Positions 16,833 through 23,540 of a DNA stretch of 64,000 bases are shown here, in pieces. The notes beneath the pieces were generated by a model. The model was not told the origin of the DNA, did no database searches, and saw only the letters and a program-made list of their open reading frames with translations. The DNA comes from Paracoccaceae bacterium. Lineage in GTDB: Bacteria > Pseudomonadota > Alphaproteobacteria > Rhodobacterales > Rhodobacteraceae. Each line of letters opens with the position of its first letter. Position 1 is the first letter of the stretch. Where the stretch lies: assembly GCA_947476475.1 (NCBI GenBank), contig CANJQT010000005.1:1-64000 (forward strand), read 5' to 3'. The position numbers and the translations under genes are program-made.

Positions 16833-17309
16833 ATGCAGGCGCCGAGCCATCAGATTGCCCACTTCAATATCGCGCGGCTGCGCGCGATGCCGGGTGATCC
16901 ATTGGTGGCCGAGTTCATCGACAACGTTCCGAAGGTCAACAGCATTGCCGAGCGCAGTCCCGGTTTTGTCTGGCGATTGAATGACCAGTCGGCACAGGTT
17001 TCGCGGGACGTGCGCTTTCAGGCGGTGATGGATGATCCGCTGCTTGCCATTTCACTGTCGGTCTGGGAGACGGTCGAGGCGCTGGAATTCTTCGTGAAGA
17101 AGACCGTCCACGGGGCCTTCTTGCGGCGACGCGAAAGCTGGTTCGAGCCGTGGACAGGGCCTAACTACGTGATCTGGCCGGTTGCCTGCGGGCATGTGCC
17201 GACTTTGCAGGAGGGCAAGGAACGCCTTGCCGCCCTTGCGCGCCACGGTGCCAGCGAGCAGGCATTCGACTTTGCTTATACGGCAGGCAAGCAGGAGGGG
17301 GCGGCATGA
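16833..17309 (+). CDS. DUF3291 family protein
   Basis: A 158-residue soluble protein matching the DUF3291 pattern: IAHFNIARLRAMPGDP at the start, PGFVWRL near residue 45, SLSVWETVEALEFFV near residue 80 and RRESWFEP near 105. The fold is probably a dimeric alpha-beta barrel like antibiotic-biosynthesis monooxygenases, but the function is unknown. It follows a 91-base AT-rich gap containing a palindrome and may have its own promoter. It overlaps the next small gene by four bases. Confidence 0.8.
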   Translation: MQAPSHQIAHFNIARLRAMPGDPLVAEFIDNVPKVNSIAERSPGFVWRLNDQSAQVSRDVRFQAVMDDPLLAISLSVWETVEALEFFVKKTVHGAFLRRRESWFEPWTGPNYVIWPVACGHVPTLQEGKERLAALARHGASEQAFDFAYTAGKQEGAA

Positions 17310-17593
17310 TGGCCTTGCAGTTCCTGACGCCGATCATAGCCTCGGTCCTTTACGTGATCGTCTTTCAGAAGGCGGGCTTCAAGGGGGCGATGCTGGTCAT
17401 CTGCGCTGGGCCGGTCGTTGGCGCGATGCTGACGCAGCTGATGATCCGCATGATTATGGCGGGCGGCGGCGGGCCGGGCATGATGATCCTGCCGCTAATC
17501 GCAATCCCATTCGCGCTGGCGCCGCTTCTGGTGCTGGCTTTCAAATCCTGGCCGCCTGTCAGTGCGGCCCCCACTATTCGTTCGGAGAAATAA
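17306..17593 (+). CDS. small membrane protein of unknown function before nuoG
   Basis: A 95-residue hydrophobic protein with about three transmembrane segments (about residues 4-21, 27-50 and 58-80) and a glycine-rich bend (MAGGGGPGMM). Not assigned to a family. It begins inside the DUF3291 stop (ATGA) and ends three bases before nuoG, so it is co-translated with the operon. A second ATG follows directly and may be the true start. Confidence 0.65.
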   Translation: MMALQFLTPIIASVLYVIVFQKAGFKGAMLVICAGPVVGAMLTQLMIRMIMAGGGGPGMMILPLIAIPFALAPLLVLAFKSWPPVSAAPTIRSEK

Positions 17594-17596
17594 AGA

Positions 17597-19618
17597 ATGT
17601 CGAACCTCCGCAAGATCATCATCGATGATATCGAAGTCGAAGTTGATCCGAACCTGACGCTGATCCAGGCCTGCGAACAGGCGGGGGTCGAGGTGCCGCG
17701 CTTTTGCTATCACGAGCGGCTGAGCATCGCCGGGAACTGCCGGATGTGTCTGGTCGAAGTGGTGGGCGGCCCGCCGAAGCCCGCGGCATCGTGCGCGATG
17801 CAGGTCAAGGATCTGCGGCCCGGCCCGAATGGCGAGCCGTCGGTGGTGAAGACCAACTCGCCGATGGTCCGGCGCGCCCGTGAAGGGGTGATGGAGTTCC
17901 TGCTGATCAACCATCCGCTGGATTGCCCGATCTGCGATCAGGGTGGCGAATGCGATCTTCAGGATCAGGCGATGGCTTTCGGCGTTGATTTCAGCCGCTA
18001 CCGCGAGCCGAAGCGCTCAAGCGAGGATCTGAACCTTGGGCCGCTGGTTTCGACCGCGATGACGCGCTGCATTTCCTGCACGCGCTGTGTGCGTTTTACA
18101 TCGGAAGTGGCCGGGATCACCCAGATGGGCCAGACCGGGCGCGGCGAGGATGCCGAGATCACCAGCTATCTGAACATGACTTTGGACAGCAACCTGCAGG
18201 GCAATATCATTGATCTTTGCCCGGTTGGGGCGCTGACCTCGAAACCCTATGCGTTCACCGCGCGGCCGTGGGAGCTGACCAAGACCGAAAGTATCGACGT
18301 TATGGATGCCTTGGGGTCGAACATCCGTGTCGATACCAAGGGGCGCGAAGTGATGCGGATCTTGCCGCGCAACCATGATGGCGTGAACGAGGAATGGATT
18401 TCCGACAAGACCCGCTTTGTGTGGGACGGGTTGCGCCGCCAGCGGCTGGACGTGCCCTACATCCGTGAGGGCGGCAAGCTGCGCAAGGCCAGCTGGGCCG
18501 AGGCGCTGGCCGCAGCGGCGGCGGCTATTAAGGGCAGGAAGGTCGCGGGTCTGGTGGGCGATCTGGCCCCGGTCGAAGCCGCTTACAGTTTGAAGTTGTT
18601 GGTCGAAGGCCTGGGCGGTTCGGTCGAATGCCGCACGGACGGGGCGCGGCTGCCGATCGGCAACCGCTATGGCTATGCCGGTAATGCGACGATCGAGGAT
18701 ATTGACAGTGCGCAGATGATCCAGCTGATCGGCACCAACCCGCGGGTTGAAGCGCCGGTGCTGAATGCGCGGATCCGCAAGGCCTGGACCAAGGGGGCCG
18801 AGATCGGTCTGGTGGGCGAGGCGGTGGATCTGACCTATCGCTATGCCCATTTCGGGACCGACCGGGCGGCGCTGGAAAGCCTGTCGTCGCGCAAGATTTC
18901 CGAGGAAACCAAGGCCAAGCGCAGTCTGGTCATCGTGGGGCAGGGCGCCATACGCGAGGCGGACGGGGCGGCGGTTCTGGCCCATGCGATGAAGCTGGCC
19001 GAAAACAGCAATTCGAAGCTTTTGATCCTGCATACGTCGGCAAGCCGCGTGGGCGCGATGGATGTGGGTGCCGTGACCGAGGGTGGCCTTCTGGCCGCGA
19101 CTGAAGGGGCCGAGGTCATCTTCAATCTGGGGGCCGACGAGGTTGAAATCGCTGCGGGGCCGTTCGTGATCTATCAGGGCAGCCACGGCGACCGTGGGGC
19201 GATGCGGGCCGACGTGATCCTGCCGGGTGCGGCCTGGACGGAAGAAAACGGCCTTTTCGTGAACACCGAGGGTCGTCCGCAACTGGCGATGCGCGCCGGT
19301 TTCGCGCCGGGCGAGGGCAAGGAAAACTGGGCGATCCTGCGGGCCTTGTCGGCGGAACTGGGGGCGGCGTTGCCATGGGATTCGCTGGCCAGTTTGCGGC
19401 AGGCGCTGATTGCGGCACATCCGCATCTGGGGGGCATTGATCAGGTCAGCGCGAACGCGGTCCAGACCCTGCCGGTCGAGGCGATGGGCAAGGCCACATT
19501 CCGAAATGCGATCAAGGACTTCTACCTGACGAACCCGATTGCGCGGGCCAGTCAGGTGATGGCGGACCTGTCGGCGATGGCCAAGGCGCGGGCCGAAAGC
19601 CCGATGGCGGCGGAGTGA
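17597..19618 (+). CDS. nuoG: NADH-quinone oxidoreductase subunit G
   Basis: The 75-kDa iron-sulfur subunit (673 residues). The N-terminal ferredoxin-like domain has 2Fe-2S N1b ligands in [15 protein letters not shown] and [20 protein letters not shown], with an upstream His in NHPLDC, binds N5; [10 protein letters not shown] and the later DLCPVGAL cysteine bind N4. The rest is a degenerate molybdopterin oxidoreductase domain. The length matches alphaproteobacterial and mitochondrial forms rather than the longer E. coli NuoG. Confidence 0.95.
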
Positions 19619-19620
19619 CC

Positions 19621-20064
19621 ATGCAGATGGCGCGGATCACGGCGGGGATGGTTCTGACCGGCACGATGGCCGGTCTGGCCGCCTGTGCCGCTGCGCCGGA
19701 TGCAGAGGCCGGGGAAGCGGTGAAGGCCCAATACCTGTCGTCCGAAGTGATGCTGATGGGCGGTGATCTGGTACAGGCCAAGGTTGCCGCAAAGGGCAGG
19801 GACGCAGGGGCGGTGCTGGACGATTACGCGCGCTGCGTGGTGGCGGGCTTTGCCTTGAAAAACAACGCAGGTTTCGTGCGCAATGTGCGCACGCTGACCG
19901 GAAAAGAGGGTGGCATTTGGCGCGCGGATGCTGTTTACAGCGTCACGTCGGCGCTGCCCGAAGGGGTGCAGACCATCGACGCGGAAGTGACGGTGGCAGA
20001 TTGTGCTGAACGTGGCATTCCGACGGGCGAAACGCCCGCCGCCGAGATCAAGACGGGGGCCTGA
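19621..20064 (+). CDS. putative lipoprotein between nuoG and nuoH
   Basis: A 147-residue protein with a lipoprotein signal: a hydrophobic segment ending in LAAC, with Cys22 the likely lipidated residue. The mature part has two cysteines (YARC and ADC) that could form a disulfide. No family recognised. Starts at the ATG three bases after the nuoG stop; a GTG at 19615 overlapping that stop is less likely. It would act in the periplasm, an unusual place for the product of a complex I operon gene. Confidence 0.65.
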   Translation: MQMARITAGMVLTGTMAGLAACAAAPDAEAGEAVKAQYLSSEVMLMGGDLVQAKVAAKGRDAGAVLDDYARCVVAGFALKNNAGFVRNVRTLTGKEGGIWRADAVYSVTSALPEGVQTIDAEVTVADCAERGIPTGETPAAEIKTGA

Positions 20065-21644: not shown

Positions 21645-22052
21645 ATGACCGAGGAATTCCAGAAACTTTTCGCGCAGATGATGGAGCAGGGCCAGCAGAT
21701 GGCACGTGCCTTCAATCCTGCGTCGGAAACGTTCAAGGCCCCCGGTTTTGACAAGATCTGGCCGACGATGCCGGCGGACATGATGGAAATGTGGTTTGGC
21801 AAGACCTTCAACCGTGAAGGTTTGGATGCCAAGACCCGGCTTTTGGTCACCATCGCCGCATTGACGGTTCTGGGCGCGCAGGGCGAGCCGCAGCTGGCGC
21901 TGACGATCCGCCATGCGCTGGAGGCAAAGGCCACCAAGCGCGAAATCGCGGAAGTGATCTATCAGATGAGCATGTTCGGCGGGCTGCCCGCCATGACCAA
22001 GGCGCTGGAAGTGGCGCAAAAGGTCTTTGACGAAACGGGAGACAGTGCATGA
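21645..22052 (+). CDS. carboxymuconolactone decarboxylase-like protein
   Basis: A 135-residue all-helical protein. Residues about 55-130 fit the carboxymuconolactone decarboxylase/AhpD fold ([20 protein letters not shown], then [20 protein letters not shown]). The redox CxxC of AhpD is absent: there is no cysteine in the protein. The N-terminal 50 residues are Met/Gln-rich and helical. Function in the nuo operon is unknown. It lies nine bases after nuoI, and its stop overlaps the nuoJ start. Confidence 0.75.
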
Positions 22053-22657
22053 CGGTCGCGGTTTTTGCCTTTTACCTTTTTGCGATAACTGCGGTGATTG
22101 CAGCACTTGGCGTGGTGATTTCGCGCAATCCGGTGCATTCGGTGCTGTGGCTGATCCTGACCTTCCTGTCGGCCTCGGGGCTGTTCGTGCTGCTGGGGGC
22201 CGAGTTCGTGGCGATGCTGCTGATCATCGTCTATGTCGGCGCGGTGGCGGTTTTGTTCCTGTTCGTGGTGATGATGCTGGACGTGGATTTCGCCGAGCTG
22301 AAGGGCGAGATGGCCAAATACATGCCGCTGGGCCTGCTGATCGGGGTGGTGGTGCTGATGCAGCTTGGCATCGTTTTCGGCGGCTGGACCACGGCGGAAA
22401 CCGCGGAAGCCGCGCGCACGGCGGTGACGCCGGACGGGGTGGAGAATACCGCCGCCATCGGCCTGCTGCTTTATGACAAATACATCCACCTATTCCAGCT
22501 GGCGGGGCTGATCCTGCTGGTGGCGATGATCGGGGCGATCGTTCTGACTTTGCGGCACAGGAAGGACGTGAAGCGCCAGAACGTGCTGCACCAGATGTGG
22601 CGCGACCCGGCCAAGGCGATGGAACTGATGGATGTGAAGCCGGGGCAGGGGCTGTGA
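22049..22657 (+). CDS. nuoJ: NADH-quinone oxidoreductase subunit J
   Basis: A 202-residue membrane subunit with five predicted helices; [20 protein letters not shown] and [20 protein letters not shown] are the conserved second and third helices. The C-terminal cytoplasmic tail ([14 protein letters not shown]) is typical of alphaproteobacteria. It overlaps both neighbours by TGATG or ATGA junctions. Confidence 0.95.
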
Positions 22658-23238
22658 TGCTGAGGATTTGCCTTGCCTTGGTGGCGCTATATCCGGGTGT
22701 GTTTTCGCAAGCTTGGGGCTGCGAACCCATGATTTTTGGTCGGTTTGCCGATACCAGCGCCTACAGCAAGCCAATAAAAATTAACCCGGACTGCAGCTTC
22801 GATCACGAGTTCGTCGTCAAAGAAGCGACTTACAAAGTATTGGCCTCTATCTCGGCGGGCGCGGTGCGTGACTTGGGAAACGGACGCGTGGCACAGCGTG
22901 TTTCTAACGGCGGGTCTTGCTCGCTAACTGAGCAGCTTCTGTTTATCGACTGTGCGACCGCGGACCTTATCGCAATCGAGGGTATCCATCCAAAAAGAGA
23001 CTGGGAAATCGGCGGTCTTTCAGAGCGCAGAGTAGAGGATATTCAGAAGCCGAAGGGGCCAATCGAACTAGGCCCCAACAGTTCGATCGCAGGGCTAGTT
23101 AAAATTGCTGAAGCGAACGGCTTCAACTACAAGCGCGACCTTGAGGACGAACTTGCGGGGCTTAAACGCAAGAACCGCTATGACCCGTTCTGCGGCTGCA
23201 AACTCTATTACCCCGACCTCGCGGAGGCATCGCAATGA
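22657..23238 (+). CDS. secreted hypothetical protein between nuoJ and nuoK
   Basis: Not recognised. The 193-residue product has a signal peptide (hydrophobic residues about 3-19, possible cleavage near AWG at 19-21). The mature part has six cysteines (GCEP, PDCSF, GSCS, DCAT, FCGC), which fits a disulfide-bonded periplasmic protein. The start ATG overlaps the nuoJ stop and the stop overlaps the nuoK start, so it sits exactly in the operon, although nuoJ and nuoK are normally adjacent. The sequence is AT-richer than its neighbours, with codon choices (aaa, tta, att) rare in the surrounding genes, which suggests acquisition. Confidence 0.65.
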
Positions 23239-23540
23239 TCACCCTGACCCACTACCTTGGCGTTGCCGCCGCTTTGTTCGTGATCGGCATCTTTGGCATC
23301 TTCCTGAACCGGAAGAACGTGATCGTCATCCTGATGTCGATCGAACTGATGCTGCTGGCGGTGAACATCAACTTCGTCGCTTTTTCGAGCTTCCTGCATG
23401 ATCTGGCCGGGCAGGTTTTCACCATGTTCGTGCTGACCGTTGCCGCCGCCGAGGCGGCGATTGGCCTTGCGATCCTTGTTTCCTTTTTCCGCAACCGCGG
23501 GACTATCGACGTCGAAGACGTCAACGTGATGAAAGGCTGA
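23235..23540 (+). CDS. nuoK: NADH-quinone oxidoreductase subunit K
   Basis: A 101-residue antiporter-like membrane subunit with three helices. [20 protein letters not shown] contains the conserved Glu of helix II, and [20 protein letters not shown] the Glu of the third helix. Starts within the stop of the orphan gene before it (ATGA). Confidence 0.96.

Follow-up and report, generated by a model that had tools for sequence, protein, structure and literature searches.

Unidentified reading frames occur inside the nuo/nqo operons of Alphaproteobacteria such as Paracoccus and Rhodobacter, and the Rhodobacterales include Paracoccus, a model for mitochondrial complex I. The gene described here, P0001, resembles those frames in being a lineage-specific open reading frame (ORF) between nuo genes but differs from them in that its product looks exported, is cysteine-rich, fast-evolving and patchily distributed, and has no match among the family models searched. 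A second point of comparison is provided by the supernumerary subunits of Paracoccus denitrificans complex I, additions to the complex I core of which the excerpt of PMC11522691 used here names four, i.e. NDUFS4, NDUFS6, NDUFA12 and protein L-isoaspartyl-O-methyltransferase, one of them Paracoccus-specific; in that excerpt, all four are named as families other than that of P0001. Two groups of small exported proteins also invite comparison, the Rap1a/Tai immunity proteins (PF18602) and the cysteine-containing LprI lysozyme inhibitors (PF07007), because a Rap1a-type ORF lies in the same junction, and an LprI protein in another variable junction, of a congeneric species (G003). P0001 differs from both in matching neither model, as do the other members of its family (17 and 51 rows searched), and from Rap1a/Tai also in having no effector gene beside it, its neighbors in the window being nuo genes.

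In the window, by which we mean the whole 64,000-nucleotide stretch of DNA analyzed, P0001 occupies positions 22657-23238 of the + strand, where it is flanked by nuoJ (complex I chain 6; 22049-22657, +; PF00499) and nuoK (complex I chain 4L; 23235-23540, +; PF00420), and it encodes a protein of 193 residues. The sequence-only reading that preceded this work had described an exported protein with six cysteines that splits nuoJ from nuoK and overlaps the genes at both ends, and in these respects it was accurate. The ATG of P0001 overlaps the nuoJ stop codon by one base (TGATG) and its own stop codon overlaps the nuoK start by four bases (ATGA), while an in-frame GTG three bases upstream of the ATG would, if used as the start, give a four-base overlap with nuoJ. 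A GGAGG recognized by eye within the last P0001 codons (23223-23227, +) is the probable ribosome-binding site of nuoK. Residues 1-21 (22657-22719, +) form a putative Sec signal peptide, also recognized by eye, with the mature protein starting at about C22; of seven cysteines, one lies within the signal peptide and six in the mature part. The gene is present in a single copy in its own genome. The nuo cluster of the window holds further non-nuo ORFs (16833-17309, 17306-17593, 19615-20064 and 21645-22052), which comprise one for a DUF3291 protein, two short ORFs without Pfam match and one for a CMD-family protein.

The first homologues were found genome-wide by BLAST, irrespective of their place. 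Over 394 genomes of the window's bacterial family, P0001 had matches at E ≤0.01 in 12, its own genome included; the ten matches at E ≤2.1e-4 (eight other genomes) all lay in the nuoJ-nuoK or nuoK-nuoL junction, and of three weaker matches those in G044 and G176 lay in the same junction and the one in G170 did not. Relatives from other genera reached E values down to 4e-25, and these together with purifying selection in one subfamily (see below) indicate that P0001 is a real gene, above chance. An iterated HMM search over junction ORFs, accompanied by 3590 reversed decoys, then yielded 51 members in 43 of 138 genomes. The members that entered after three or more rounds (G002, G004, G260, the second ORFs of G044 and G109, and the nuoK-nuoL copy of G326) were accepted at E ≤1e-3, compared to 0.04-1.7 for the best reversed decoys. 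Because alignments A1 to A4 include rows taken from junction ORFs, the profiles lean toward nuo-located members.

To these profiles P0001 contributed the founding row, and it belongs to the family both by its profile match (DLGxGxVxQ, DC and C-x-C) and by its place in the junction. In P0001, the first motif reads DLGNGRVAQ (residues 72-80; 22870-22896, +; alignments A1 and A5, and the hhalign comparison mentioned below), the DC comprises residues 98-99 (22948-22953, +), and the C-terminal motif reads CGCKLYYPD (residues 179-187; 23191-23217, +). The conserved cysteines are C46, C99, C179 and C181. C99 is invariant (51/51 members), C-x-C is found inside the final 60 residues of 48 of the 51, and the N-terminus is hydrophobic in 50 of 51 by a simple hydropathy rule applied to start codons that were partly chosen by hand. 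A subset of 15 members (the A2 subfamily, hereafter WWSQEG subfamily) carries the motif THISHGGE...WWSQEG and is well conserved across genera; comparison of its profile with that of the P0001 type (A5) gave 97.1% and E 5e-11, documenting that the two are related.

Over 388 whole genomes of the window's bacterial family, the A1 profile, built from the first 17 members, gave at least 47 matches at E ≤0.001 in at least 41 genomes; because few candidates were scored per genome (at most nine here and at most twelve in the search of 289 genomes described next), the whole-genome counts are lower bounds. Based on nuoK in the fetched loci and on coordinates, 45 of the 47 matches are located in the nuo cluster. 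Paralogues outside nuo were found in G027, between adk and rpsM in the ribosomal-protein operon (L160:3930-4706, -), and in G291, beside rimO and ppk2; with three profiles, both have scores far exceeding those of 1000 shuffled controls, and both genomes also keep a nuo-located copy. In a class-wide search of 289 genomes with the 51-row profile, at least two matched, i.e. the window's own and G064, and this sample gave no credible hit besides the window's genome. The G064 match (E 4e-4) was taken to be chance, lying antisense within a 416-codon ORF that by eye is cation-transporter-like.

A pattern scan of named genomes added 65 relatives, which by NCBI ranks divide into 36 Roseobacteraceae, 26 Paracoccaceae, two other Rhodobacterales and one unplaced; 16 genera are named, including Tateyamaria, Yoonia, Roseobacter, Jannaschia, Loktanella, Roseovarius, Thalassobacter and Silicimonas. 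Every one of the 65 is found in the nuo cluster; the nuoJ-nuoK junction accounts for 63 of them, L227 is located between nuoK and nuoL, and L219 beside nuoL. L219 (CAKZYL010000430.1, from a metagenome-assembled genome) shows a CMD gene, the orphan and nuoL with nuoJ and nuoK undetected between them, an order that may be an assembly artefact. Among the 43 carrier genomes of the junction search, eight have tandem copies if pairs flanking nuoK are counted: two members share one junction in G022, G044, G109, G176 and G265, and one member lies on each side of nuoK in G286, G318 and G326. The family is, then, lineage-restricted, exported-looking and cysteine-rich, its home is the loose nuoJ-nuoK junction, and P0001 is a divergent member of it. 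Its relatives are inherited at that junction, often absent, sometimes duplicated in place and rarely found in another operon.

To describe the junction itself, we surveyed 107 places taken from the listed nuoK matches, 27 being among the best 30 and 80 being further listed ones, omitting genomes already sampled and places near contig ends; the remaining three of the best 30 (G000, the window's genome, G004 and G318) are all carriers. The nuoJ-nuoK gap is 30-160 bp in 70 of these junctions and at least 350 bp in 21, while the nuoK-nuoL gap is below 30 bp in 100 of 107. A family member is present in 14 of the 107, and 14 others of at least 160 bp have no recognized member. In one of these, that of G168, all that is left of a member is a C-terminal remnant, covering positions 116-154 of the 157 in the profile (E 1e-6), and this relic indicates loss in place; some of the long junctions without a member contain other ORFs, not all of them exported-looking. 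In three genera, the junction is taken up by a different protein of 266-300 residues (L044, L087 and L145, from G261, G375 and G313, respectively), which has a hydrophobic stretch at its N-terminus and a long region rich in acidic residues and alanine; for the one such protein searched, Pfam gave only weak matches under the cut-off.

One recurrent element was seen in the RNA structure of the junction, namely a small hairpin connected with the Shine-Dalgarno sequence of nuoK in 53 of 138 junctions, compared to 11% in a shuffled control; the same test at nuoL gave 5 of 138 compared to 9%. Examples are found in L003, L005, L006, L008 and L014, and a frequent ending is CCCGGAGGG; in the window, the hairpin was not seen at 23190-23234. 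It represents a possible translational control of nuoK and fits the view that nuoK has a start signal of its own, which may explain the tolerance of the junction for extra genes. RNA structure as a target for insertion received no support from the 71 empty spacers, the mean z of which was -1.3 relative to mononucleotide shuffles, with 23% below -2.

The sequence-only reading had also called the gene AT-richer and, on this basis and that of the scarless joins, had considered insertion. The first statement is correct for third codon positions, at which the GC content (GC3) is 0.61 in P0001, 0.84 in nuoJ and 0.80 in nuoK (range 0.76-0.84 for nuoF to nuoN as tested), but much less so for total GC, in which P0001 (0.540) lies below nuoJ (0.612) and only slightly below nuoK (0.556). 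Low GC3 is also no mark of recent arrival: it is lower in the member than in its own nuoK in 46 of 51 cases (and than in its own nuoJ in 49 of 51), and as a trait common to the family it was discarded as an indication of transfer. Total GC is usually not poorer, being below the genome's own nuoK in 11 of 51 members and below its own nuoJ in 16 of 51.

The WWSQEG subfamily is under purifying selection: in a set of 59 of the 65 named loci, the median dN/dS over 43 close pairs, which overlap in loci and are not independent, was 0.156, compared to 0.019 for nuoK and 0.033 for nuoJ. Across the same number of loci (n = 59), orphan distance tracks that of nuoL (Mantel r 0.61) and that of nuoJ (r 0.49; p 0.001; nuoL versus nuoJ, r 0.67), as expected under inheritance with the operon. 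Presence is patchy on a weak tree from a 536-column alignment of conserved proteins, on which the 14 carriers in the set of 107 genomes require 13 changes, compared to 13.4 for shuffled labels; on the carrier-enriched set of 138 genomes it is slightly clustered (32 changes compared to 36.9, with 5 of 200 shuffles as low).

The comparison of close relatives that the sequence-only reading had called for shows that they are not all carriers. The five congeneric species have four states of the nuoJ-nuoK junction. The window's genome has P0001; G002 and G004 have a distant 139-residue relative (76% identical to each other); G003 has the Rap1a-type ORF, which matches PF18602 over the whole profile at E 7e-6 but with 26.9 bits lies just below the Pfam cut-off of 27.7 and has no NCBIfam match; and G001 has a 63-bp spacer. 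BLAST of P0001 gave no match at E 0.01 in any of G001 to G004. The second orphan noted earlier in the window, P0002 (4408-4863, +; 151 residues), lies between the genes for an acyl-CoA dehydrogenase and a carboxyl transferase, and this junction varies as well: in G003 it holds an LprI lysozyme inhibitor (PF07007, E 5e-16, above the cut-off), in G002 (L232) an unrelated 251-residue ORF in a 771-bp gap that has no significant Pfam match and does not look exported, and in G004 and G001 no gene, the gaps being -4 and -1 bp. P0002 has no Pfam match over the cut-off, no relative among 60 other genomes and no BLAST relation to the LprI protein of G003; by eye its cysteine spacing is LprI-like, for which the scan gives no support. 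Around both orphans we found only short repeats, none of which bounds a gene. Those near P0001 comprise two direct pairs, one of 14 nt with a single mismatch and one of 12 nt that is exact and lies inside nuoK, in addition to an inverted pair; P0002 has one inverted pair nearby. Because P0001 and P0002 have no sequence relation to one another, no common origin is shown for them and this idea was rejected, and of the proposal of a shared mechanism of insertion what stands is that both junctions vary in content within one genus.

Searches of reference libraries gave no name for the family. P0001 had nothing convincing in Pfam (best E 0.05, below the cut-off), in PHROGs, in PDB sequences, in plasmid and phage collections, or in peptide-pattern scans of genome and viral contigs; neither were relatives found in viral contigs within the patterns scanned. 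When 17 and then 51 members were searched against Pfam and NCBIfam, 17 members against PADLOC and both family profiles against PDB sequences, the outcome was again nothing convincing, and no Pfam, NCBIfam or PADLOC family was common to more than one member. We recognized no description of a nuoJ-nuoK junction gene in the literature as covered by titles and beginnings of abstracts, mostly outside subscription papers. Judged by the libraries searched, P0001 belongs to an undescribed superfamily without convincing match.

AlphaFold2 models were obtained for P0001 (pLDDT 83, pTM 0.77) and for the WWSQEG type (pLDDT 93, pTM 0.84; input alignment from 44 of the 65 named loci and seven others). The predicted fold has at least five consecutive strands followed by helices, with the C-terminal C-x-C opening a helix. 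Foldseek gave no match at E ≤0.001 in the PDB for either model or in a viral library for the WWSQEG-type model, and VIA-align gave mixed rows with best Z values of 4.9 (P0001 model) and 5.9 (WWSQEG-type model), i.e. no clear fold match. Among the tied best rows for both models is Haemophilus influenzae protein E (PDB 3zh5 and others), at rank 5 for P0001 (Z 4.5, rmsd 4.0, 90 residues aligned) and rank 1 for the WWSQEG type (Z 5.9, rmsd 4.3, 88 aligned); with Z below 8 and identities of 8-10%, this likeness may reflect a common arrangement only. The fold of the junction family is possibly new, and the lack of a fold match excludes no known family.

Our working hypothesis, which we put forward tentatively and at somewhat under an even chance, is that P0001 is a periplasmic inhibitor- or immunity-type protein parked in a loose operon junction. 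Specifically, P0001 would be expressed from the complex I transcript, with its translation coupled through the overlapping stop and start codons, so that its dose would follow that of a housekeeping operon; it would be exported by Sec and then oxidized in the periplasm, where the mature protein would consist of a largely beta domain and then helices, the segment with the C-terminal C-x-C probably being held by disulphides; and its role there would be that of a binder or inhibitor of the immunity or lysozyme-inhibitor type, shielding the envelope from an attacking or endogenous enzyme, with the nuo operon serving only as a safe and well-expressed berth. We infer coupling, export with oxidation, and the inhibitor role with certainty decreasing in that order, and the last, protective step is the weakest and a shade more tentative than the hypothesis overall. 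In favor of it are the rapid change of the protein (median dN 0.139 in the WWSQEG subfamily compared to 0.019 in nuoJ), the duplications in place and frequent absence, and the occurrence of Rap1a-type and LprI proteins in the same slots of G003; moreover, the paralogues at adk-rpsM and beside rimO and ppk2 suggest a protein not tied to complex I. Several observations argue against it. No toxin gene lies near P0001, a type VI secretion system (detected as TssK) is no commoner in carriers (7/40, G308 being left out of the 41) than in non-carriers (8/40), and the Rap1a-type ORF of G003 does not reach the Pfam cut-off. The conservation of the WWSQEG subfamily across genera is unlike an arms race, presence is slightly clustered on the 138-genome set, and neither model clearly matches an inhibitor fold or any other. 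The position in the nuo cluster of 45 of 47 matches and of 65 of 65 named loci, and the retention of a nuo copy in both genomes with a copy elsewhere, suggest instead a tie to complex I.

The most serious rival, which we place behind the inhibitor-type protein and regard as rather unlikely, is that P0001 assists complex I from the periplasm, as an accessory or assembly factor that would dock on the periplasmic face of the membrane arm (NuoJ/K/L) and stabilize or tune it in some lineages. Like a supernumerary subunit or assembly factor, P0001 is encoded together with complex I genes, almost exclusively so across the family, and its gene overlaps both nuoJ and nuoK; the correlation of its distance with those of nuoL and nuoJ and the purifying selection agree with such a role. 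By itself, the place in the nuo operon does not settle the matter, as a single ancestral position with subsequent losses would give the same picture. Against a complex I factor, matches occur in only 41 of 388 genomes of the bacterial family (a lower bound) while nuoK is present in 377 of 394, and two paralogues lie outside nuo. Nor did any residue in NuoJ, in NuoK or at the start of NuoL show an association with presence that exceeded permutation (best p 0.0013; over 60 permutations, the best p had a median of 0.0042 and a 5% quantile of 0.0005). Finally, the four supernumerary subunits listed in the excerpt of PMC11522691 are three mitochondrial-type proteins and one methyltransferase.

Less likely again, in our estimate, is another envelope function, e.g. 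in periplasmic redox, metal binding or cell-wall homeostasis, with the nuo place being inherited and uninformative on function. One ancestral place with many losses, of which the G168 relic provides an instance, explains the distribution without a functional link, and C-x-C and the other conserved cysteines would suit such a protein, but no sequence or fold match indicates one. The arrival of P0001 as a recent foreign insertion, through a mechanism targeting stop/start junctions, for which the two variable junctions within one genus, the low GC3 and the scarless joins might speak, is very improbable and largely refuted as the origin of the gene, since the same family occupies the same junction across tens of genera, low GC3 is a family trait, the phage and plasmid collections and, within the patterns scanned, the viral contigs gave no relative, neither gene is bounded by a repeat and the two orphans have no sequence relation. 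P0001 is not a one-off insertion, and the G168 relic shows loss in place, although some exchange through recombination within the flanking nuo genes may have taken place.

Extending the inhibitor-type explanation, stop/start junctions in housekeeping operons of Rhodobacterales, above all nuoJ-nuoK but also acyl-CoA dehydrogenase-carboxylase and adk-rpsM, could be exchangeable berths in which small exported proteins that inhibit envelope-attacking enzymes are lodged, together forming a dispersed, toxin-free repertoire of defence concealed within core operons, with this family as its main resident; we consider this generalization speculative and improbable as it stands. The interest of the locus lies in an undescribed, locus-bound family and a variable junction rather than in a new insertion event. 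An uncatalogued protein family resides inside one of the best-studied bacterial operons, and either complex I has a lineage-limited periplasmic accessory factor or core operons carry exchangeable envelope-protection genes for which there is no family model.
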